Shown here piece after piece: positions 49,843 to 64,000 of a stretch of DNA of 64,000 nt. Position numbers and translations under genes: made by a program. Source of the stretch: Thermoflavimicrobium daqui (GTDB lineage: Bacteria; Bacillota; Bacilli; Thermoactinomycetales; Thermoactinomycetaceae); contig NZ_KZ845675.1 in NCBI RefSeq assembly GCF_003313465.1, positions 1-64,000 on the forward strand, given 5' to 3'. Position 1 is the stretch's first letter. Each line of letters starts with the position of its first letter. The notes beneath the pieces were generated by a model that saw only the letters and a program-made list of their open reading frames with translations, ran no database searches and was not told the origin of the DNA.

Positions 49843-50556
49843 ATGTTTCGGAAGAAGATGCAAAAGTGGCGTCACGTATTTAAATTAGATCCTAACCGAA
49901 AGCTATCGGACTTAGCACTGAAAATGGTCTGTACATCTGGGACAGACGCCGTTATTATTGGTGGGACTGATGGAATTACATTTGAAAATACATTTGCGCT
50001 CTTACAGCGAGTGAAGCAATATCCTATCCACTGTGTTCAGGAAATTTCCAATCACTCAGCAGTCATGCCAGGATTTGATGGCTATCTGATTCCTTCTGTT
50101 CTAAATACAGAGCAAGCTTATTGGATTAAGGGGGCCCATTTTGAAGCCATTCAAAAATATGGTCACCTCATTCCTTGGCAGCAAATCGCTTTACAAGGAT
50201 ATGTGATTCTAAATCCAGATGCGAAAGTAAGTCGTTTAACCAAATGCGATACTCAATTAACCCCACAAGATATCACTGCCTATGCACAGCTCTGTGACCA
50301 ACTTTTTCGTATTCCTATTTTTTATCTTGAATATAGCGGAACATATGGAAAAGTAGAGATGCTCAAAGCAGCACGTAAAGGCTTAAAGCAATCTCGCCTT
50401 TTTTATGGTGGGGGGATCACCACAGAAGAACAGGCGAAAGACATGGCAGCATGGGCTGATACGATTGTGGTGGGAAATTTGATTTACTACCATGTAGAAA
50501 GAGCGATGAACACAGTGAAATGGGTGAAAGAAACGCCACTTAGAAAAGGGGAGTAG
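49843..50556 (+). CDS. pcrB: Heptaprenylglyceryl phosphate synthase
   Basis: 237 residues. It transfers heptaprenyl to sn-glycerol-1-phosphate, making an archaea-like ether lipid in Bacillales. TIM-barrel signatures: HVFKLDPNRKLSD, TSGTDAVIIGGTDGIT, FYLEYSGTYG and LFYGGGITTEEQA, with the phosphate site VVGNLIYY. ATG 49843 has aaggag 9 nt upstream and fits the family N-terminus. First gene of pcrB-pcrA-ligA; 18 bp before pcrA. Confidence 0.93.
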   Translation: MFRKKMQKWRHVFKLDPNRKLSDLALKMVCTSGTDAVIIGGTDGITFENTFALLQRVKQYPIHCVQEISNHSAVMPGFDGYLIPSVLNTEQAYWIKGAHFEAIQKYGHLIPWQQIALQGYVILNPDAKVSRLTKCDTQLTPQDITAYAQLCDQLFRIPIFYLEYSGTYGKVEMLKAARKGLKQSRLFYGGGITTEEQAKDMAAWADTIVVGNLIYYHVERAMNTVKWVKETPLRKGE

Positions 50557-50574
50557 AAAGGGAGGACTTCATCA

Positions 50575-52767
50575 ATGAACCCTTCAACATTATCATTACT
50601 AGATGGGTTAAATCCGATGCAAAGACAAGCAGTGGAGACTACAGAAGGACCTGTACAAATTTTAGCAGGGGCAGGAAGTGGGAAAACACGGGTGCTTACA
50701 TTTCGTGTTGCTTATCTCTTGGCTAAAAAGAAGATTCATCCTTGGAATATTTTAGCGATTACTTTTACCAATAAAGCGGCTAGAGAGATGAAAGAGCGAA
50801 TTGGAAGACTCGTTGGTTCAGTTGCCGAAGACATCTGGATTTCTACTTTTCACTCCATGTGTGTGAGAATTTTACGACGCGATATTGATCGGATTGGTTA
50901 TTCTCGTAATTTTACGATTTTGGATACATCAGATCAGCTTTCAGTGATCAAACAAATTCTAAAAGAAGAGAATTTAGATCCCAAAAAGTTTGAGCCTCGC
51001 TCGATTTTACATCGGATCAGTGCAGCTAAGAATCAGCTCTTAGGTCCTCAAGGAATGCTGAAGCAAGCTTTAGCCAAAGGAGACTTTATGGCTGAAGTAG
51101 CGGCAGAAGTCTATGAGAAATATCAAGATAAACTACGTACCAATGAGTCTTTGGATTTTGATGATTTGCTGATGAAAACCGTTATGCTATTCGAGCAGGT
51201 ACCTGAAGTGAAAGAGTATTATCAGAAAAAGTTCCAATATATCCATGTAGATGAGTATCAAGATACAAACCATGTTCAATACGTCCTCGTTCGTATGCTT
51301 GCGGCCAATCATCAAAACATTTGTGTTGTGGGTGATGCAGATCAGTCTATCTATCGCTTCCGAGGTGCCGATATTAGTAACATTTTGCAGTTTGAGAGAG
51401 ATTGGCCCAATGCGATGCTGATTAAACTAGAGCAAAACTATCGTTCAACCAAAAAAATCCTAGAAGCTGCTAACCATTTGATCGCTCACAATACGGAGAG
51501 GAAACCGAAGAATCTCTGGACTGAAAATGAAACAGGTGATTCCATCCAGTTATTTGAAGCGGAAAATGAACATGATGAGGCTTATTATATTGCCGAGCAG
51601 ATTATGAGAGGGAACCAAACAGGTACGGATTATAAGGATTTTGCCATATTATACCGTACCAATGCTCAATCACGGGTCGTAGAGGAAGTTTTACTTAAAT
51701 CGAATATTCCTTACCAAGTGATTGGAGGGATTAAATTCTATGAACGTAAAGAGATTAAGGATATCTTGGCTTATTTACGGTTGATTGTAAATCCACGCGA
51801 TGATTTAAGTTTAACTCGGGTGATTAATGTGCCACGGCGCGGGATCGGTGCCGTCACATTGGAGAAAATCCAAACTTACGCAACAGCACACCAGCTTTCC
51901 CTCATCGATGCCTTGCTCGAAGCGGATCAGATTGGGCTTACCAAACGGAACCTTACTCCACTCAATGAATTTGTCCAATTGATTCAGCAACTTCATGCGA
52001 TGGTGGAATATTTATCAGCGGAAGAGTTGACGGAAGAAGTGTTAACACGGACAGGATATCGTGAAGAGTTAAAGAAAGAAAAGACGTTGGAGGCACAAGG
52101 GCGTTTAGAAAATATTCACGAATTTATGTCTGTAGTACAAGAGTTTGAAAAACGTAGTGAAGATAAATCCTTGGTAGCCTTTTTGACAGACTTAGCCCTC
52201 ATTTCGGATATTGATGCTTTGGATGAATCGGTTGACGAGTCAAGACCAGCCTCTTCCGTTTCTCTGATGACTTTACACAGTGCAAAAGGATTGGAATTTC
52301 CCTATGTATTTTTGGTTGGAATGGAAGAAGGAATTTTTCCACACAGTCGAACGATGGACGATGAGGAAGAGATGGAAGAAGAGCGCCGTTTAGCATATGT
52401 AGGAATTACGCGTGCCGAGAAGTGTTTACATTTGACACGAGCGCGTGTTCGTACTATATTTGGACATACCAGTGCAAACCCTCCTTCCCGCTTTTTGAAA
52501 GAGATCCCAAGTGAGCTAATCGAACAAGTGGGGCAAGCGAAGAAAGTGACACCAAGCTCAGAGATGCGCCGCTCTGCTATCCACCGACCTGTACAGACTG
52601 TTTCGGATTGGGCTGTAGGTGATAAAGCCGAGCATCGTAAATGGGGGATAGGAACTGTGGTGAAAGTGCAAGGAGCCGGCGAAGACTTAGAGCTAAATAT
52701 CGCTTTTCCAGCTCCGACCGGAGTGAAAAAATTACTTGCTCGCTTTGCCCCGATTACCAAGGTGTAA
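50575..52767 (+). CDS. pcrA: ATP-dependent DNA helicase PcrA
   Basis: 730 residues; UvrD/Rep superfamily 1A 3'-5' helicase. Motifs in order: Q motif LNPMQRQAV, Walker [13 protein letters not shown], Ia [76 protein letters not shown] (split by a short linker), [13 protein letters not shown]. Acts in repair and conflict resolution at transcription. ATG with gggagga upstream. Confidence 0.97.
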
Positions 52768-52780
52768 ATCCTTACGCTGA

Positions 52781-54802
<2,022 letters not shown>

Positions 54803-55090
54803 TCAATGAAAAAAAGTAAAAAAATCTCCTTTTTTATACGGACATTAAACCAAATTTAGTGTATGATAATATTGTTTTTATTTTCATCTTTTCGTTCTTA
54901 TGTAAGTGCAGTTCTCGTTTTGGTCTTTGGTTTCTATTACTATACTTTTGAGCGCAGAAAACTCGGATCACATGGAGTGAGTATGCGCTTTTTTTGTATG
55001 GTTGTTAGAAATATGGGTTATAAACAGGAAAATACAAGGGTTACCATGAATATAGAATGAACTGGAAAAAATAAGTGGAGGAACCCTTCA

Positions 55091-56764
55091 ATGAGAAAGG
55101 AGAAGTTAGTTACATCTGGGCTTTTTCTTTTTTTTCTGGTCGTACTCAGTCTAGCTGCTTGTGATTATGATTGGTTGCGATTTGGTTTACCAAAGCCAAT
55201 TTCATCATTTGAAGATCTACAAGCCCAAACCTTAAATAAACGCATTCCACAGCGAAAAATAGAGCTTTCTTCTTATGCAAAGGAGCTGGGAGGGAGCTTA
55301 ACTTCCCCCAGTTATAGGCAGTTTGCTGCCGATGCCCAAGTATTTGTATCAGGGCAAATAAAGGCATTCAAGAAACGTCCTAACTCCTATCTCTGGATTC
55401 AGGTAAATTCTTTAAAGCCTACCATGAAGGGATTGCCGAAATCCTTTGACTATTATGTACCCCTTCGAAATGGGAAATTTCAGCAAAATATTCGACTATT
55501 TGCTGGTATTGGGGAATATCGAGTCATCATTCGTATAGCAGATAAGCAAAGGTACATACCTTTTGCTTCATTTTATGTCAAAAATGTGAATCCCAAGATC
55601 GAACGTGATATTAGTTATAGTCAACAAGTCAAGCAAGATCAACTAAAGATAGCTGCACCAAGCTCTGGTTATACCATACAAGATCAATTCTTTACACTAG
55701 CTGGCAAAAGTTCAGCAAGTAATCTGATGGTCCAGATTCATAAAGATGCAAATGTGATGCGGTTTCCGATCACTGTCCATAAAGGAGAGTTTTCAGAGCA
55801 ACTTCCATTGTTAGAAGGAAATGGTATCTACCGAATCCAGGTACTCCTTCCAGACCGTTCAAAAAAGGATGGATTTGTAAATGGAGCTACACTTTATATA
55901 GAAAATAAGTCAAAACAAGAAAAAATAGGCATCCAATTTACAGAACTTTACAAACAAAGAGGGATTCTCTTAAGCCATCCTATTGAAGGCTATGCTCAGA
56001 CTCGCTTAACTTATCGGATTGCAGGAAAAATCGACCCCAAAGTCTCCTTAGCGAGAAAGACGACTCATATTGTGGTACAAATTGACAAAGGTGGCACCAA
56101 AGCAACGTATTTTTTGCCAATTAGACAAAACCGCTTTGATGGGCAAATTGGCCTCCGTTTTGGTATGGGTATGTATGATGTAGTGGTATTTGTCCCTGAG
56201 ATTACGACTCAGAAAAATGATTACTTTCGCTTTTATCCCATAGCACGGTTTAAGGTATGGAATCAAACACAAAAGGATTTACGAGATTTGATGCCATCGC
56301 GAGGGATTGAATCCGATCATCCAATTATCAAGCGTTTAGCTTCTCGATTGACGAGAGGGAAGCGAAGTGATCTAGAAAAAGCAAAAGCGATTTTTTCTTA
56401 TGTTGCGAAAAACATCCATTACGACGTAAGAAAATTGAAGAACAACAGCTATGCTTGGGATGATAGTGCACTCAAAACTCTTCGTTTACGTAAAGGAGTT
56501 TGTCAAGATTTTGTATTCCTATCGATAGCTCTTTTAAGAGCAGCGAATTTGCCTGCTCGTTTTGTAGAAGGGGAAGCAGGTAACCAGCAACATGCTTGGG
56601 TTGAAGTATGGATAGCTGGGCGCTGGGTGACGATGGACCCGACTTGGGGTTCTGGTGTATTAAATGGCCAAGGTGGCTTTACTAAAAAATATGATGAATT
56701 TTATTTTGACCCTGTGCCTGAACTTATCGCGAATACGCATACACGAAAAGGTGTGATCTATTAA
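55091..56764 (+). CDS. Transglutaminase-like lipoprotein
   Basis: 557 residues. Lipoprotein signal LFFLVVLSLAACDYD with the lipobox Cys at about residue 24. Residues about 75-410 hold three similar beta-sandwich segments (QVFVSGQIKAFKK..., FFTLAGKSSASN..., RLTYRIAGKIDPK...). The C-terminal transglutaminase core has Cys in RKGVCQDFVFLS (about 471), His in NQQHAWVEVW (about 500) and Asp in TMDPTWGSG (about 515). Domain order suggests wall or substrate binding by the sandwiches and Cys-protease or transglutaminase action outside the membrane. It lies after ligA, where B. subtilis has an unrelated lipoprotein gene. ATG after gtggagg. Confidence 0.85.
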   Translation: MRKEKLVTSGLFLFFLVVLSLAACDYDWLRFGLPKPISSFEDLQAQTLNKRIPQRKIELSSYAKELGGSLTSPSYRQFAADAQVFVSGQIKAFKKRPNSYLWIQVNSLKPTMKGLPKSFDYYVPLRNGKFQQNIRLFAGIGEYRVIIRIADKQRYIPFASFYVKNVNPKIERDISYSQQVKQDQLKIAAPSSGYTIQDQFFTLAGKSSASNLMVQIHKDANVMRFPITVHKGEFSEQLPLLEGNGIYRIQVLLPDRSKKDGFVNGATLYIENKSKQEKIGIQFTELYKQRGILLSHPIEGYAQTRLTYRIAGKIDPKVSLARKTTHIVVQIDKGGTKATYFLPIRQNRFDGQIGLRFGMGMYDVVVFVPEITTQKNDYFRFYPIARFKVWNQTQKDLRDLMPSRGIESDHPIIKRLASRLTRGKRSDLEKAKAIFSYVAKNIHYDVRKLKNNSYAWDDSALKTLRLRKGVCQDFVFLSIALLRAANLPARFVEGEAGNQQHAWVEVWIAGRWVTMDPTWGSGVLNGQGGFTKKYDEFYFDPVPELIANTHTRKGVIY

Positions 56765-56778
56765 TGATCACACCTTTT
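56746..56778 (+). terminator. Terminator of the lipoprotein gene
   Basis: aaaaggtgtgatc / gatcacacctttt, perfect 13-bp arms with a 7-nt loop, and the stop codon at the edge of the loop. Confidence 0.85.
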
Positions 56779-56912
56779 CATTTATGGTAAATAACAATTC
56801 TATAAATAATTTGATAGATAAATTTCTGTTTTTTAGTATAATGGAAATGCTAAAAAATAAGATTTCCGATTTGTATGAAATAATACCATTTTTCGGTAGG
56901 GGGAATTTCGGT

Positions 56913-57167
56913 TTGTTTATGTTACTTAGTATGTCCTTATTTAGTGTGGTCATAGCGAGCTTACATTTTTTTGCTACAGGTAATTTGTTAGTTGGAGTTT
57001 CATTACTTGGCTCTGGTGCTGCTATTGGAACAGGAACCATGTTCTTATACCAAAGTAAAGCACATACACAACATGAACATGAGACACAAAAGAAAAAGAA
57101 AAAATCGAAGTTTGACTGTGATTGTTGTGATTCCTGTGACCTTCCAGATTGTGATTGCTGCGATTAA
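56913..57167 (+). CDS. Small membrane protein with Cys/Asp-rich tail, copy 1
   Basis: 84 residues from TTG 56913 (aggggg 9 nt upstream); this start aligns exactly with the ATG of the neighbouring paralogue, whereas an upstream ATG at 56784 lies next to a terminator and lacks a site. Two hydrophobic stretches form one hairpin (FMLLSMSLFSVVIASLHFF and LLVGVSLLGSGAAIGTGTMF). A Lys-rich linker (QKKKKKSKF) leads to the tail DCDCCDSCDLPDCDCCD: seven Cys and seven Asp in 17 residues. The tail is a plausible metal-binding or Cys-linked region. No family recognised. Confidence 0.65.
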   Translation: MFMLLSMSLFSVVIASLHFFATGNLLVGVSLLGSGAAIGTGTMFLYQSKAHTQHEHETQKKKKKSKFDCDCCDSCDLPDCDCCD

Positions 57168-57362
57168 TTCTGATTAAAGTATGGTTTAGATTGAAATACA
57201 CTTTTTGGGTGGAGTGAATATGTAATAGCTTATTTTAATTATTGTATAGAATCATTTATTATACTGATTGTTTGTTTCTATTTTATTGTATAATGGGAAT
57301 ATAAAAATAGCTTTCTCTTCTAACTTATCGATAAAAATTAGTTAGCTGAAATGAGGGAAAGT

Positions 57363-57617
57363 ATGTTTATTTTATTAATGATGTCATTTTTTAGCTTGAT
57401 TATTGCTAGCCTGCATTTTCTAATGGTAGGTAATTTACTTTTGGGAGCTTCATTGCTTGGCTCTGGAGCATTGATTAGTTCAGGAACGATGTACTTTTAT
57501 AAAAAGAAAACATTTGCGATGAAGTTGAAAAAGAAATTAAAATTAGATTTCTGTGATTGCTGTGATCTCCCGGATTGTGATTGTTGTGATGTTCCAGATT
57601 GTGGTTTGGATTGTTAA
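57363..57617 (+). CDS. Small membrane protein with Cys/Asp-rich tail, copy 2
   Basis: 84 residues, ATG with gaggga 5-6 nt upstream. Clear paralogue of copy 1: FILLMMSFFSLIIASLHF, LLLGASLLGSGALISSGTMY, then a basic linker (KLKKKLKLD) and the tail FCDCCDLPDCDCCDVPDC ending GLDC. The repeated tail unit CDCCDLPDC is shared word for word with copy 1. Each gene has its own TATAATGG-type -10 upstream (56837, and about 57288), so they are probably separately transcribed. Confidence 0.7.
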   Translation: MFILLMMSFFSLIIASLHFLMVGNLLLGASLLGSGALISSGTMYFYKKKTFAMKLKKKLKLDFCDCCDLPDCDCCDVPDCGLDC

Positions 57618-57632
57618 TAGAAAGTGACTTTT

Positions 57633-57665
57633 GGTTACGACATATTCAGATGTCGTAACCATTTT
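57633..57665 (+). terminator. Terminator after the Cys-rich pair
   Basis: ggttacgacat / atgtcgtaacc arms (11 bp), 6-nt loop, then attttta. Confidence 0.85.
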
Positions 57666-57768
57666 TATGTGGTAGCGAATGGACAAAAAATAGAGCAATC
57701 ATGTTTTTAGACAGTTCCTATCGATGCTTACTCAGAAGTTGAATAGATAGAGAAGGACGTGAGCTGGA

Positions 57769-58098
57769 GTGAATTTTTTATCTTTGATCCCTTGTCATCG
57801 TCGCCCGGATCGGACGATTCATATTAAAGGAAAGCCCATGCCTTTATGCGCGCGTTGTACAGCCATTTATGCTTCATATATCTTACTCCCCCTTTTTTAT
57901 TTTGCTCCTAAAAATCTCTTCACTCTTGGTTTATCCATTTTTTTGCAACTACCGATGTTAATCGATGGTTTGACACAACGTTGGGGTTTAAGGGAAAGTA
58001 ATAATGTTCTACGTGTGATTACAGGGATTTTAAGTGGGATTGGTCAGTGCTTGTTTATTTGGTTTATGTCTTATATGATTATTCAAATACTAAAGTAG
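57769..58098 (+). CDS. DUF2085 family membrane protein
   Basis: 109 residues. The N-terminal IPCHRRPDRTIHIKGKPMPL followed by CARCTAIYASY gives the invariant CH...CxRC set of DUF2085, probably a metal site near the membrane. Three hydrophobic segments follow (ILLPLFYFAPKNLFTLGLSI, LRVITGILSGIGQCLFIW). Function is unknown. GTG start, about 11 nt after aagga; initiation is therefore somewhat uncertain. Confidence 0.85.
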   Translation: MNFLSLIPCHRRPDRTIHIKGKPMPLCARCTAIYASYILLPLFYFAPKNLFTLGLSIFLQLPMLIDGLTQRWGLRESNNVLRVITGILSGIGQCLFIWFMSYMIIQILK

Positions 58099-58183
58099 AG
58101 TTACCTTTTTAACAGGAATTCGCTGCTTATCGCTTAAACATGCCTAAGGTTGTAGTAGGAGAAAAGATAGAGGTGTCGTAGTT

Positions 58184-59104
58184 ATGGTAGATAAACAGGC
58201 AACTTTTGTCTATCAAGTTGCTGAAACAGATGATGGAAAGATGTTACGACAAGTTTTAGAAAGTCACTTTGGTTTTTCGAAAAGGATGATGCGAAGGCTA
58301 AAATTGCATCAACTTGTTACTGTGAATGGTGATGTGATTTACTTTACACAACGTGTACACTCAGGAGATCGAATTGTAATTCGAATGATGGAAGAGGAGC
58401 TTCCAGAGTATCTAATACCCCAAAAAGTTCCCTTTCATCTTGTGTATGAAGATGAAGATATTGTGGTGGTTGATAAGCCTCCTGGATTGGTGGTTCATCC
58501 TACACGTAGCCATCCAGAATATACACTAGCAAATGGTTTATTCTACCATTGGCAAAAGCTAGGTCAGATGCACAAAATGCGCCCAGTAACACGATTAGAT
58601 AAAGATACTTCTGGGCTGATGGTGATTGCTAAGCATGCTTATGGTCATGCCTACTTGGCTGAGCAGATGAAGAAAAAAAGATATCAGCGCATGTATGTTG
58701 CGATTGTTCATGGACAAATGGCACAAGATTCAGGAACGATTGACGCCCCGATTGGACTGGATCTAAATCATGCGATTGCAAGAAAAGTTGACTTTGGTGA
58801 AGGGGGCGATTCAGCGATTACTCATTATCAAGTCGTAGAGCGTTATCCAACAGCGACAAAGGTACGATTGCAGCTAGAAACCGGCCGAACGCATCAGATT
58901 CGTGTACATCTTGCTTGGCTGGGGTACCCAATTTTTGGTGATTCTCTGTATGGGATCGGGACGGATATGCAGGATATTCCTCGTCAAGCGTTGCATGCGA
59001 CCTATTTACGCATTTATCATCCGCGATATAAAGAATGGAAAGAGTGGGAGTCAACATTACCCTTAGATATGTGTAAGTTAATCGAAACACTGCAAAGAGG
59101 TTAA
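58184..59104 (+). CDS. RluA-family pseudouridine synthase
   Basis: 306 residues. An N-terminal S4-like RNA-binding domain (about 15-85, LRQVLESHFGFSKRMMRRLK) precedes the RluA catalytic domain with PVTRLDKDTSGLMVIAKHAY (RLDxxTSG, catalytic Asp), VDKPPGLVVHPT and LETGRTHQIRVHLAWLGYP. Such enzymes (RluD/YlyB/YhcT/YjbO type) modify uridines in rRNA or tRNA; the target is not deducible. ATG at 58184 with a weak ggtgtcg upstream; a preceding gagaaaagataga is poor. Confidence 0.9.
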   Translation: MVDKQATFVYQVAETDDGKMLRQVLESHFGFSKRMMRRLKLHQLVTVNGDVIYFTQRVHSGDRIVIRMMEEELPEYLIPQKVPFHLVYEDEDIVVVDKPPGLVVHPTRSHPEYTLANGLFYHWQKLGQMHKMRPVTRLDKDTSGLMVIAKHAYGHAYLAEQMKKKRYQRMYVAIVHGQMAQDSGTIDAPIGLDLNHAIARKVDFGEGGDSAITHYQVVERYPTATKVRLQLETGRTHQIRVHLAWLGYPIFGDSLYGIGTDMQDIPRQALHATYLRIYHPRYKEWKEWESTLPLDMCKLIETLQRG

Positions 59105-59295
59105 CTTCCATGTTGATAGGAAGGAAGCTTTTTTTCTAGGAGTTATTGAACCCGTATCAATGGTCTATGTAACACAGTGCCCTCCTCGATAGGAGATAAG
59201 AATGTTGTTGATCTAGAAACAGGATTCATAAGTGCTGCGTGGCGAAGATATCACCTCGGCAATATGATAAATCATGGATAGAAAGGAAGAATTCC

Positions 59296-60063
59296 ATGCC
59301 AAAAAAAGTTGCATGGGTATTGGGTGGAGCAAAAGGGCTTGGCGTGATGGTCGCCAAAGGCTTGGCTCAAGATGGCTATCAACTTGTGATTAATTACCGG
59401 AAAAGTCGTCAAGCAGCCCAAAAGTTACAACATGAGCTACAGGAAATAGGAAGTGATGCTCTCATTTTACAAGGCGATGTGAGCCAATTATCCGCAGTTA
59501 AACAGATGGTTCAAGAAGTGATGCATACATGGGGACGGATCGACGTGCTGGTTTGTACAGCAGGTCCTTTTCATTTTAAACCGATTCCGCTGGTAGAGTT
59601 ACAGGATCATCAGTGGGGGGAGATGATCGATGGTAATTTATCAAGTGTATTTTATATAACTCGTGAAGTGATTCCTATCATGCGGCAGCAAGGAGGAGGT
59701 CGAATTATTACCTTTGGTTTTGCTGGTGCAGAGCTTGCTCCGGCGTGGTCAGGTTACTCTTCTTATGCGGCTGCAAAAGTAGGGCTAGTGTCCCTGACAA
59801 GAACACTAGCTGAAGAAGAGGCATCTTTTGGAATTACAGTGAATATGATTTATCCAGGTGATATTCGTGATCCTTATAAAGAAGCGCTTATTTCAGAGGC
59901 ACGTGGACAAGCTGATCCACGTTCACGAGTGGGACGACCTGGAACAGGTGAGGATATTGCTAGAGTGGTGCGATTCTTGGCGCATCCGGACTCTGATTGG
60001 ATTACAGGTGCTATTATCCCAGTTACTGGAGGTTTTTCACTTCATTGGAATTATGTAAAATAA
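59296..60063 (+). CDS. Short-chain dehydrogenase/reductase
   Basis: 255 residues; ATG 59296 has aaaggaag 6-7 nt upstream and starts at the usual SDR strand (KKVAWVLGGAKGLGVMVAKG). The nucleotide site is GGAKGLG; NYRKSR after strand 2 suggests NADPH. The active site is YSSYAAAKVGLVSLT (YxxxK), with Ser in the preceding AELAPAWSGYSS. C-terminal WITGAIIPVTGGFSLHW is standard. Substrate unknown; nearest resemblance is to FabG-like and pteridine reductase-like SDRs. Confidence 0.9.
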   Translation: MPKKVAWVLGGAKGLGVMVAKGLAQDGYQLVINYRKSRQAAQKLQHELQEIGSDALILQGDVSQLSAVKQMVQEVMHTWGRIDVLVCTAGPFHFKPIPLVELQDHQWGEMIDGNLSSVFYITREVIPIMRQQGGGRIITFGFAGAELAPAWSGYSSYAAAKVGLVSLTRTLAEEEASFGITVNMIYPGDIRDPYKEALISEARGQADPRSRVGRPGTGEDIARVVRFLAHPDSDWITGAIIPVTGGFSLHWNYVK

Positions 60064-60168
60064 GTAAATAAACTGTAATACTATCGTAACATTCTAGTTT
60101 AAAAAAACGCCCATTTTTTAGCTATTTCGTTATAATGTATTATAGTTTATTGTTGTGTTGGGCTGAAA

Positions 60169-60336
60169 TTATAGGGATGTTTTTTTTAGATAATATGCTA
60201 GTCCGAACCAAATAGCTGAGCCGATTAAGCCAGCGATGAAGCCTTTTAAACCATAATGTAGAAGGAAGAAAAGAGAAGCTAAAATTCCTAATCCACCGGT
60301 AAAGAGACTAGCAAAAATCGCTGCTTTGGAATTCAT
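60169..60336 (-). CDS. Small 2-TM membrane protein
   Basis: 55 residues; ATG with gaggtga upstream. Two hydrophobic segments, FASLFTGGLGILASLFFLL and IAGLIGSAIWFGLAYYL, with a basic end KKTSL. The longer frame upstream lacks a ribosome site. No family recognised. It is divergent from the class A PBP gene. Confidence 0.6.
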   Translation of the reverse strand: MNSKAAIFASLFTGGLGILASLFFLLHYGLKGFIAGLIGSAIWFGLAYYLKKTSL

Positions 60337-60498
60337 GTATCTTTTCACCTCTGCTTCAATATACCATATGGAGCTCTTTAATAGGTATAGGGGAGAAAAG
60401 TCAAACTCTTTATTGCTAAAACTGGGGGAAATCCCCGAATTTTGAAGAACTATCCTTGACTCAAAAGTAATGTTGAAAAAGTACCAGGAGGTTCGTTT

Positions 60499-63138
60499 AT
60501 GAGTGATTTTCATCAGATGGACCCACCATTATCCAGATCACAACGGCATTCCCGGAGAAATCGAAAGACCAATCGACCTAAGAAGAAAGGCAACTTTGGT
60601 CTTTATTTTAAATGGTTTTCTTGGGCAATGCTTGTTTGCATCTTGGGGGTAACATGTTGGGCGGCTTTTATTTTCTTTACGACTCCAGAAGTGGACATTA
60701 ATGCTTTAAAAAATATTAATTACTCTACTAAAGTTGTAGATGTAAATAATAAAGAAATTGGAAAGTTTGGAGTGGATGATACCCAAAGAGAGCTTATTAC
60801 GTATGAGGAGCTAAACAAGCACAACTCTCTCTTGCTGGATACGATTAAAAAAGTAGAAGATGCTCGCTTTGATAAACATAATGGCATTGACTATTATGCT
60901 TTAGGTCGGGCAGTAGTTAGGAATATTATAGCAATGGGGAAAGCTGAAGGTGGTGGAACGATCACCATGCAGGTTGCCCGTAATATCGTCCTGCAGAGTA
61001 AAGAAAAATCTTATACACGGAAAATTAGGGAATTTGCTGTCGCTTTACAATTGGAGAAGAAATATGGAAAAGAGAAGATCCTTGAAGCATATGTGAACTA
61101 TATTAACTTCCATCCAAGTATTCAAGGGATTTCCCTTGCTTCTAAGATTTACTTTGGCAAAGATCTTAAAAAACAAAAATTAGAGCCCGATGAAGTAGCC
61201 ATCTTAGCCAGCCAGCCCAAGTCACCAACCGGTTATTATCCACTTGATCCAAAGCCTGAGATTAAGAAAAAAGCATTGGATAGACGGAATCTAGTTCTTG
61301 GGATTATGGCTCGGACAGATGAGATGCAGCCACTGATTAGTCAAGCCGATAAATCGAAGTATCAACAGATGGATATGGAGAAACGTGTCGAAAATCATTA
61401 TGCTGAATTTGTTAAGCCGAAAAATACGAATGAAGCCTACTTACAGCTAGTCCAGTCAGAGATCGGTAAGTTAATCGATGATGGAAAGCTAGACTCAGAA
61501 GTACTAAAACATGGGGCTACGATCCATACCAACTATGAACCCAAAATGCAGCAAGCCGTCGATAAAGCAATGAGTAAGAAAGAACTCTTTGTTTCTAAAC
61601 AGGGGAAAATGATTGATCCCAAACTGATGGATGCAGGGGTAACGGTAATGAAACCGGATGGTGCAGTGGTTGCTATTAGTGGGGGAAGAGAATATCTAAA
61701 AGGTTATTCCAACCGGGCACTAGAAAGACATCAGCCAGGTTCTTCGATCAAGCCATTGTCTGTATATACGCCTGCGATCGAGGATTTAGGCTATCATGAA
61801 TATACACCGATAGTTGATAAAGAAGTGTCTGTACGTGGAAAAAAGATTAAAAACTATACCGGAAATTATGCAGGTAAAATCCAGATGTGGCAGAACGTGA
61901 AAGATTCATTGAATGCTTCAACCGTGGAAATGCTTCAAAAAGTAGGCTTAGAGAGATCATTTAATTATACTAAGAAGTTAGGCTTAGAGCTAGTCAATGC
62001 CGACTTGGACTATTCTCCGCTTGCTCTGGGGGGATTAACGAGAGGAGCTTCAACGCTTGAGATGGCACAAGCGTATACCGTGTACCCACAAAGTGATGGG
62101 AAGGTAAAAGAAGCTTTTACCATTAAGAAAGTCGATGATCCACTCGAGAAGGATTATGAGCGTGAGACAGAAGGTCAGGAAGTGTTTAGTGAGAAATCTG
62201 CATACTACATGACCCGGATGCTAGAAAGAGTTGTAAAAGAAGGAACAGGGGAAAAGGCACAAATTAAAGACGGTCGACCTACGGCAGGAAAAACAGGAAC
62301 GGCAGATAAAGAAGATACCGTTTGGTTTGTCGGCTATACGCCACAATATATAGCAGCTGTGGATGTATTTAGGGTAAATACACCAGAAAATAAAGGCAAA
62401 GAGCTACAAATTAAGAGTGCTGTTCCAGCTAGTATTTTTAGTGAATTTATGTCCGAAGCGATGAAAGATATGCCGAAGGAAAACTTTAGACAGCCTGAAG
62501 GCGCGGCTCCTCCGCCTAAACCAAAAGAAGAAAAAGAGGTGAAAAAGCAGCTTAGCCTAACAGCTGAATATAATCAACAGGACAAAGCGGTCCATTTGAA
62601 TTGGAGCGACCTTGGCGGCGACTATAGTTATACTGTGTTGAAAGATGGTAAAGATGCTGGGGCAATGAAAGTAGATCCGAATGTCAAGTCTGGACAAACT
62701 TACCAATATCAAGTAGTCGCAACGAATAAAAAGCAATCTGACGAAAAAATCGAATCCAATGTAGCGTCGATAACCATTGAGGATACGGAAGAAGAAGATC
62801 CTTGTAAAAATGATCCAAACTCGGAAGAGTGTAAGAAGAAAAAATGTGAAGAAGATCCAGAAGCAGAGGGTTGTGATAAAGAAGAAGATCCGAATAAAAT
62901 CGATTGTAGTAAAGATCGAGCCAAGTGTAAGCAAATTGCTAGGGACGCATGTAAAGATAAGGCGGATGGTTGTGTAATTAATGTAGAGCAATGTCTCAAG
63001 CAATCGGGAGATATAGCAACTTGTAAAAGCAATGCCAATGCATTCCCACCTAAAACTCCAAATCCAGATCCAGGTCAAGATCCAGATCCAGGTCAAAATC
63101 GTCCCCCTTCTCTTTTACTCTCCCGATTTCGTCTCTGA
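60499..63138 (+). CDS. Class A penicillin-binding protein with Cys-rich tail
   Basis: 879 residues; ATG after aggagg. A basic cytosolic N-terminus and one TM (about 35-57) precede a glycosyltransferase 51 domain (KVEDARFDKHNGIDYYALGR with catalytic Glu; GGGTITMQVARNIVL). The transpeptidase domain has QPGSSIKP (SxxK Ser about 415), DSLNAST (SxN) and AGKTGTADKED (KTG about 597). An FnIII-like domain follows (LSLTAEYNQQDKAVHLNWSD). The last 110 residues are unusual: Glu/Lys-rich with ten Cys, then NPDPGQDPDPGQ. It polymerises and cross-links peptidoglycan outside the membrane. It has its own terminator. Confidence 0.93.
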   Translation: MSDFHQMDPPLSRSQRHSRRNRKTNRPKKKGNFGLYFKWFSWAMLVCILGVTCWAAFIFFTTPEVDINALKNINYSTKVVDVNNKEIGKFGVDDTQRELITYEELNKHNSLLLDTIKKVEDARFDKHNGIDYYALGRAVVRNIIAMGKAEGGGTITMQVARNIVLQSKEKSYTRKIREFAVALQLEKKYGKEKILEAYVNYINFHPSIQGISLASKIYFGKDLKKQKLEPDEVAILASQPKSPTGYYPLDPKPEIKKKALDRRNLVLGIMARTDEMQPLISQADKSKYQQMDMEKRVENHYAEFVKPKNTNEAYLQLVQSEIGKLIDDGKLDSEVLKHGATIHTNYEPKMQQAVDKAMSKKELFVSKQGKMIDPKLMDAGVTVMKPDGAVVAISGGREYLKGYSNRALERHQPGSSIKPLSVYTPAIEDLGYHEYTPIVDKEVSVRGKKIKNYTGNYAGKIQMWQNVKDSLNASTVEMLQKVGLERSFNYTKKLGLELVNADLDYSPLALGGLTRGASTLEMAQAYTVYPQSDGKVKEAFTIKKVDDPLEKDYERETEGQEVFSEKSAYYMTRMLERVVKEGTGEKAQIKDGRPTAGKTGTADKEDTVWFVGYTPQYIAAVDVFRVNTPENKGKELQIKSAVPASIFSEFMSEAMKDMPKENFRQPEGAAPPPKPKEEKEVKKQLSLTAEYNQQDKAVHLNWSDLGGDYSYTVLKDGKDAGAMKVDPNVKSGQTYQYQVVATNKKQSDEKIESNVASITIEDTEEEDPCKNDPNSEECKKKKCEEDPEAEGCDKEEDPNKIDCSKDRAKCKQIARDACKDKADGCVINVEQCLKQSGDIATCKSNANAFPPKTPNPDPGQDPDPGQNRPPSLLLSRFRL

Positions 63139-63146
63139 TCGACTCT

Positions 63147-63177
63147 ATCCCAGTGCAGAAGCGCTGGGATCTTTTTT
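63147..63177 (+). terminator. Terminator of the class A PBP gene
   Basis: atcccagtgc / gcgctgggat stem of 10 pairs (one G-T) with an agaa loop, then cttttttg; 8 bp past the stop. Confidence 0.9.
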
Positions 63178-63325
63178 GCCTATATTGGTCAGATAAGGGG
63201 GAATATTCATCATAGTGGGCTCCTAGTTTTGACTATCTATTGCGCTCCTTCTTATGTATAGTTTGGTTATACTCTCGTAAATAAAGTGATACACATAGAA
63301 GGGATGAAGTAAAGGAGGGAGATTG

Positions 63326-64000
63326 ATGAGCGAAAAGCAGAAGGGTGAAGAAGAGTTTGTACCTAAAGTGCGTAGCGTACGAATCAATGAGACAAAGCCA
63401 CCAAAGGAATTACCACAAAAGGTAGAATCCAAGAAAGAAAGGGATAAAGGGAAATCGCCTATATCTTCAAAAGACAAACCTGTCCCTCGTAGTAAGTGGA
63501 AACTCTTTTTTACATGGAAGTGGCTCATGCTTGTTCTTGTGTCTTCCTTAGTTTTAATGATAGGTATGGTAGCTACGATTATCTTGACAGGTGAATATCT
63601 ACCCTTAGAGCGAATCGATGAGAGTGGTCTGATTATTTATGATAAGGATCAGCGACGCATCATCCAGTTAGCCAAGGAACAAGACCCAGTCGAGCGAGAA
63701 AGAACGATTTATCACGAGTTTATATCTCTAGAAGAGTTAAAAACGAAAAATAAAAAGTTAATCGATGCCTTAATCAAAATGGAGGATGTCCGCTTTTACA
63801 AGCATAATGGGGTGGACTTTTATGCGATGGTTCGCTCGGCTGTCTCTACCTTAACAGGGAAAAGGGAGCAAGGCGGGAGTACGATTACCATGCAAGTCGC
63901 CCGCAGAGTCGTTTTGGGGACTCAAGAGCGAACGATTAGCCGGAAGTTAAAAGAGATGGCTGCTGCATGGAACCTTGAAAAAGATAAAGGAAAAGAGAAG
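63326..64000 (+). CDS. Second class A PBP, N-terminal part (runs off window)
   Basis: 225 codons with no stop before the window end; ATG with aaaggaggg 5-6 nt upstream. A charged Lys/Pro-rich cytosolic N-terminus of about 65 residues, one TM (about 69-92, WLMLVLVSSLVLMIGMVATI), and the start of a glycosyltransferase 51 domain: KMEDVRFYKHNGVDFYAMVR with catalytic Glu, and QGGSTITMQVARRVVL. It is paralogous to the PBP just upstream but divergent. The transpeptidase domain lies outside the window, so its presence is inference. Confidence 0.9.
   Translation, partial: MSEKQKGEEEFVPKVRSVRINETKPPKELPQKVESKKERDKGKSPISSKDKPVPRSKWKLFFTWKWLMLVLVSSLVLMIGMVATIILTGEYLPLERIDESGLIIYDKDQRRIIQLAKEQDPVERERTIYHEFISLEELKTKNKKLIDALIKMEDVRFYKHNGVDFYAMVRSAVSTLTGKREQGGSTITMQVARRVVLGTQERTISRKLKEMAAAWNLEKDKGKEK

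Follow-up and report, generated by a model that had tools for sequence, protein, structure and literature searches.

What two small tandem genes contribute to the cell when their products end in tails of cysteine and aspartate is the question raised by this locus of Thermoflavimicrobium daqui. The window analyzed here is the first 64,000 nucleotides of contig NZ_KZ845675.1, and the features of the locus are collected in Table 1. The original prediction of tandem 84-residue paralogs, each consisting of a membrane hairpin joined by a Lys-rich linker to a Cys/Asp tail, was confirmed; each gene has 84 codons plus a stop. The two proteins are 64% identical over their whole length, all of their Cys residues sit C-terminal to the hairpin, and copy 2 is 74% identical to a protein of Thermoflavimicrobium dichotomicum (NZ_FORR01000010.1). 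The TTG proposed as the start of copy 1 is supported because several relatives and an annotated Brevibacillus gene open in the same way (TTG-FF). A mechanical ORF caller extends this frame to an ATG at 56784, and another in-frame ATG lies two codons 3' of the TTG. When the 198 stop-to-stop frames of at least 60 amino acids in the window were ranked by Cys content of the last 25 residues, the two copies had 8 and 7 and the next frame had 5.

Table 1. Features of the hairpin-DUF2085 locus in the window
Feature	Position	Strand	Description
Terminator-like hairpin 3' of the upstream transglutaminase-domain gene	56745..56779	+	
Promoter-like -10 region before copy 1	56823..56855	+	Direct repeat D2, repeated before copy 2 (79%)
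Copy 1	56913..57167	+	TTG start, hairpin (about residues 2-46), His/Lys linker, tail FDCDCCDSCDLPDCDCCD
Second copy of promoter-like repeat, before copy 2	57275..57307	+	Direct repeat D2
Copy 2	57363..57617	+	ATG start, hairpin, Lys linker, tail DFCDCCDLPDCDCCDVPDCGLDC
Terminator-like hairpin between copy 2 and DUF2085	57632..57661	+	12-bp perfect arms
DUF2085 (PF09858) membrane protein	57769..58098	+	109 aa, GTG start, PCHRRPDR...PLCARC

The tail belongs to a real protein and is under purifying selection, because the block CDLPDCDCCD, which is common to both copies, carries five synonymous and no amino acid differences. The earlier claim that the tail is strictly kept between the copies holds for this block only; the whole tails have been rearranged. 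When copy 2 was compared with T. dichotomicum, pN was 0.08 and pS was 0.81 over 23 tail codons, and the corresponding values were 0.19 and 0.75 over 46 hairpin codons. The DNA pattern for CDCCD (TGYGAYTGYTGYGAY) occurs four times in the genome, always at this locus, and the reversed control gave no occurrence. A chance or low-complexity artifact was ruled out by the codon evidence and these whole-genome pattern counts.

The genes of the locus run in the order helicase-like, DNA-ligase-like, transglutaminase-domain gene, copy 1, copy 2, DUF2085, pseudouridine-synthase-like, short-chain-dehydrogenase-like, and penicillin-binding-protein-like gene (names by eye, except transglutaminase and DUF2085, which are from Pfam). 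Each hairpin copy may possess its own promoter because the promoter-like -10 region before copy 1 is repeated before copy 2. A promoter-like match of 10/12 lies before copy 1 at 56815-56842, and sigma-70-like sites at the locus were no more frequent than in shuffles. Given the terminator-like hairpin between them, copy 2 and DUF2085 may use separate transcripts in the window, unlike several loci elsewhere, in which the hairpin and DUF2085 frames overlap. A 17-nt repeat (57210-57226 and 57765-57781, 82%) links the region 3' of copy 1 with the DUF2085 start and is possibly a remnant of the duplication behind the tandem hairpins. The penicillin-binding-protein-like gene (60499-63138) has a C-terminal part that is Cys-rich among charged residues; the end of its T. 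dichotomicum homolog (L015, 9344-11989) is Cys-rich too, with a different sequence. A TatD-like gene (by eye) lies beside the hairpin on the opposite strand in two genomes of one genus (L015, 5086-5853; L016, 6733-7503) and is absent from the window.

The tail proved to be kept in other genomes as well. A single-sequence search found the hairpin in 9 of 23 genomes of the family, and profile A1, built from 10 sequences, matched 17 of the 42 genomes of the order, of which 16 were judged true (G034 and the second match in G004 were dropped as nuoJ-like by eye and without a Cys tail). Copy 1, itself a row of A1, matched it at an E value of 1.5e-29. All 22 relatives in a further alignment, A3, whose rows were partly picked for having Cys tails, have between 3 and 9 Cys among the 35 C-terminal residues. 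The hairpin, the basic linker, and the Cys/Asp-rich end are kept across the family, and the tail sequence varies; with Cys residues at variable spacing, the tails do not imply a fixed metal site. Hairpins without a Cys tail also occur, both as a paralog in genome G015 (L039) and as the third A3 match in T. daqui itself (C2:224935). In three genomes of genus g12, additional hairpin genes lie apart from DUF2085; some of them encode different tails, for example CCDIGGCGCGPCWYVK, and one (L039) encodes no Cys tail. Among the extra paralogs L038, L039, and L041-L044, tails GCGCGPCWYVK and GGCGCGCGDSC and one His-rich linker were seen.

No Pfam or NCBIfam model scored above its cutoff on the window copies, and none matched more than 4 of the 22 A3 rows. 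NCBIfam cell-wall sorting signals gave weak matches in 4 of the 22 rows (best E value, 0.00051); this identity was rejected, and the matches were taken as a common pattern of a hydrophobic helix with basic residues. Judged by their sequences, the hairpins are a family that has neither a name nor a covering Pfam or NCBIfam model.

The neighbor of the hairpins is more readily placed. The window DUF2085 matched PF09858 with an E value of 1.5e-30 and 105.9 bits, above the gathering cutoff of 25. In alignment A2 (22 DUF2085 sequences, zinc-ribbon type included), the first Cys, the His, and both Cys of CxRC are invariant, as are D66, Q70, S77, N79, R82, T85, and G86 (window numbering), and the window protein contains both the CH...CxRC and the D..Q..S.N..R..TG residues. 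The first Cys, the His, both CxRC Cys, the Asp, and Arg 82 are also invariant in 56 sequences used for a tree, counts that are partly forced because these sequences were collected by the pattern Cys-(His/Gln), (Cys/Ser)xArgCys, and a later (Asp/Phe)(Gly/Trp). Outside both sets, the His of C-H is replaced by Gln in G404 (L136). The DUF2085 of L140 has the variant CHQLPERS and no visible CxRC in the part shown. Kinship with VanZ was rejected (hhalign probability of 0.6% over 11 columns, with the VanZ side built from 4 sequences). Sequence searches found no relatives of solved structure for A3 (E values up to 1) or A2 (E values up to 10). AlphaFold models had pLDDT values of 69.6 and 58.8 with an unstructured tail and, with 3 sequences each, were too weak to define a site; a fold search with the DUF2085 model matched no solved fold (best E value, 2.3). 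Our literature searches returned no function for DUF2085 and no paper on its pairing with the hairpin. One table of genes raised by methyl jasmonate in a myxobacterium lists a DUF2085 gene with a 79-fold increase (PMC6997564).

The hairpin family and the DUF2085 gene are nearly always neighbors. At the order level, the 16 of 42 genomes with a PF09858 match are exactly the 16 genomes with a true hairpin, and this test is not circular, as A1 was built before DUF2085 was noticed. Among the matches listed for a class-wide sample of 398 genomes, DUF2085 was found in at least 41 genomes (38 after three were dropped) and the A3 hairpin in at least 37 (31 after six weak ones were dropped), and all 31 hairpin genomes fall within the 38 with DUF2085; this test is partly circular because A3 was built partly from neighbors of DUF2085. 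The DUF2085 rows dropped were G102 (six internal stops), a partial second match in G118, G311 (30 residues on the opposite strand of a long ORF), and G321 (among phage genes by eye). The A3 rows dropped were G102, G120, G132, G227, G275, G299, and the third match in G000; the six genomes had E values of 4.9e-6 to 5.6e-4 and matched in the hairpin part only, with an internal stop in 5 of the 6. The class and phylum whole-genome searches scored no more than 12 or 14 first-look candidates per genome, so that misses are possible, and the co-occurrence counts carry no correction for genome relatedness.

In all of the 32 genomes tabulated (G001 was added), the hairpin and DUF2085 lie on one contig and strand. 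The gap between the matched parts is 35 to 257 bp in 31 of them and 5,693 bp in G017; the hairpin is upstream in 29 and DUF2085 is upstream in 3. In G017 (L093, 3416-3691 and 8990-9427, both on the minus strand), other genes lie within the 5.7 kb, and the frame that immediately precedes DUF2085 lacks a hairpin and has the C terminus HSCADCDCGPDRDGDCD. Eight neighborhoods were compared, and the hairpin adjoins DUF2085 in all of them, even with differing surroundings (G013; G001 with G002). The pair is also found on plasmids of Brevibacillus halotolerans, Jeotgalibacillus malaysiensis, Paenibacillus polymyxa SC2, and Cytobacillus spongiae, a count of four records from which matches H7 and H3 (H3 having the length of H2) were left out. 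On the B. halotolerans (L148) and P. polymyxa (L151) plasmids, the pair adjoins a divergent gene annotated as a metal-dependent hydrolase. The Jeotgalibacillus DUF2085 is annotated only as a 144-bp hypothetical gene within the longer frame, and no gene is listed at the Cytobacillus hairpin, in a gene table that is incomplete by its own account. This Cytobacillus hairpin lies 12 bp upstream of DUF2085 and has, 22 bp upstream of it, a CobW-domain GTPase with a GCICCT motif, the only such gene beside a pair among 172 loci. CobW-domain GTPases belong to the COG0523 family. A subset of COG0523 is described as tied to zinc homeostasis (PMC2770081).

At 19 of the 24 DUF2085 loci without a Cys-tail hairpin, the neighbor is instead a zinc-ribbon membrane protein (18 were identified by a scan and G391 by eye, with two such proteins upstream of DUF2085). 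Those from the scan are mostly 58 to 152 amino acids long (347 and 399 in G716). Four of the 24 have no Cys module at all (G681, G460, G456b, and G674, where a flagged ORF that overlaps DUF2085 by 157 bp was rejected), and the locus of G123 looks broken. The scan was given 25 loci; its pattern missed G391 and G123, and the Cytobacillus locus in it proved to have a Cys tail. The phylum-wide DUF2085 search gave at least 26 matches in at least 22 genomes, of which, besides the window, 15 (L123-L136 and L144) entered the scan and L137-L143 and L145-L147 were left out as partial, with stops, or weak. In a local control, a Cys module with a hydrophobic stretch was found in 6 of 188 nonadjacent ORFs; the control used pruned ORFs of at least 60 amino acids and a hydrophobicity filter, the test used unpruned ORFs of at least 45 amino acids and no filter, and the background frequency of zinc-ribbon membrane proteins in these genomes may be high. 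The six positives are themselves the same kinds of module, either somewhat more distant or beside a DUF2085 that had gone unrecognized: hairpins in L015, L019, and L093, and zinc-ribbon proteins in L086 and L088. On an IMG/VR contig (L154, 3254-5898), a gene for a split zinc ribbon shares 4 bp with DUF2085, and the two are flanked by ImmA/IrrE-like and integrase-like genes (by eye); this pair is apparently carried by a mobile element.

In the tree of 56 DUF2085 sequences (104 columns, with many unresolved forks and some long branches), 34 have a Cys-tail partner, 10 a zinc ribbon, 8 a split ribbon, and 4 none, and the types are clustered. The type of partner module appears to have switched during evolution, because the Cys-tail label requires three changes on this tree, at least two of which are forced by well-supported branches.

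Across 22 hairpins, the 18-residue segment that follows helix 2 contains 116 Lys and Arg residues in total, compared with 9 in the loop of 8 residues and 0 in the first 4 residues. By the positive-inside rule, these counts predict that the tail should be in the cytosol, a reducing place. The flanking Arg and Lys residues, judged by eye, suggest that the C-H...CxRC residues of DUF2085 face the cytosol as well. Of the three tail functions in the original prediction, metal binding is the best supported, by the predicted cytosolic position of the tail and the zinc ribbons found in its place. A disulfide-linked layer fits poorly with a tail predicted to be cytosolic, and a role as a modification site is unsupported, inspection by eye of the ORFs in 50000-64000 having turned up no modification enzyme.

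It is quite possible, although we stop short of calling it probable, that the tail is a tethered cytosolic metal-binding module that serves DUF2085. In the mechanism that we infer, the hairpin would anchor a soft-metal-binding Cys/Asp tail at the cytosolic face, beside and in contact with DUF2085, whose C-H...CxRC residues would form a metal site of their own. The tail, acting as a tethered chaperone or sensor, would capture metal or exchange it with DUF2085 in either direction, and other DUF2085 proteins would rely on a zinc ribbon anchored in the membrane to do this. The metal moved would most likely be Zn(II), which is favored because of the zinc-ribbon replacements and the single GTPase case. 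Against metal handling we weighed the rarity of that GTPase, the unfixed Cys spacing, the tailless L039, the weak AlphaFold models, the terminator-like hairpin between the genes in the window, the large gap in G017, the loci without a Cys module, the local and unmatched ribbon control, and the Cys-Gln of G404. We also weighed a null result with regulator boxes: before 33 units, none of the consensus boxes tried (Zur, Fur, PerR, MntR, CsoR, and CzrA) was clearly above mononucleotide shuffles.

Zinc ribbons are usually structural, and their replacement of the tail at other loci could mean that the tail holds a structural zinc or an Fe-S cluster that only stabilizes a hairpin-DUF2085 complex and moves no metal. 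The real job of such a complex would lie elsewhere, in lipid, cell-wall, or small-molecule handling, and the seven further invariant residues of DUF2085, from D66 to G86, could be its active site or channel. We regard this as unlikely, if a serious competitor, as the number and spacing of Cys residues in the tails vary more widely than a structural site would lead one to expect. A sensor role, in which the reduced tail would respond to metal or oxidant stress and so control the activity or turnover of DUF2085, would suit a Cys-rich, cytosolic tail and the CxRC of its partner; it is improbable, given that no regulator box stood out from shuffles and that, by eye, no kinase or anti-sigma gene is constant beside the pairs in the neighborhoods compared. 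Cys-rich layers occur in Bacillota spores, and yet a disulfide-linked layer or spore structure built from tails outside the membrane is highly unlikely in the face of the positive-inside counts and the constant DUF2085 partner. We give equally little credence to a mobile-element accessory for immunity or exclusion instead of metal homeostasis: pairs do occur on large plasmids and on L154, but PADLOC had no match for copy 2, two DUF2085 proteins, and one zinc-ribbon partner, the L154 DUF2085 had no match in 50,697 phage records, and one neighborhood (ligase-like, transglutaminase, and penicillin-binding-protein-like genes) is kept at six loci (the window and L015-L019).

Returning to metal handling, we tentatively propose, as a wider and somewhat more doubtful claim, that DUF2085 and interchangeable tethered Cys modules (the Cys/Asp tail, the zinc ribbon, and a LITAF-like split ribbon) may constitute an unrecognized metal-handling system of the Bacillota, in which unrelated metal-binding modules would have replaced one another beside DUF2085. 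If this is true, the Bacillota gain a two-gene metal-handling module and an example of one genomic position occupied by unrelated Cys modules. The pairing itself is a functional lead for DUF2085 as well as for a small-membrane-protein family outside the coverage of Pfam and NCBIfam models, and it flags easily missed genes, such as the short hairpins with TTG starts and the Jeotgalibacillus DUF2085.

Among known families, DUF2085 has a clear member in the neighbor gene; the hairpin accompanies this family without belonging to it. Metallothioneins are soluble proteins with dense CxC/CC clusters; the tails share such clusters, whereas the window proteins are membrane anchored, and no metallothionein model was among the Pfam and NCBIfam matches listed. 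The LITAF domain, described as conserved in eukaryotes, pairs a segment embedded in the membrane with a zinc site on the cytosolic side (PMC5142333). Some DUF2085 partners of other classes resemble the LITAF-like family PF10601 (best E value of 8.4e-5 and 23.1 bits, with a cutoff of 23.8); the window proteins differ in having no split CxxC pairs around the hydrophobic stretch and no PF10601 match.

The FeoB-associated Cys-rich proteins (PF12669) were rejected as the identity of the hairpins: in a search with E values up to 0.1, the model matched 1 of 22 hairpins (E value of 0.0013 and 19.3 bits, with a cutoff of 27). True PF12669 matches over the cutoff were found in 6 of 21 genomes, at other places and none in the genome of the window, and the ORFs of 50000-64000, inspected by eye, included no FeoB. 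In some species, annotation places a gene for a Cys-rich membrane protein 3' of feoB; the account consulted calls its translation an unanswered question and also describes Cys residues needed for the full function of another Feo accessory protein, FeoC of Escherichia coli (PMC8749426). Like the hairpins, the FeoB-associated protein is a small membrane protein with a Cys-rich motif, widespread among Firmicutes and encoded beside one specific integral membrane protein; that partner is FeoB there and DUF2085 here. The accessory proteins of FeoB are the nearest analog of the hairpin, and a metal relay or tethered chaperone seems the likeliest reading of the pair.
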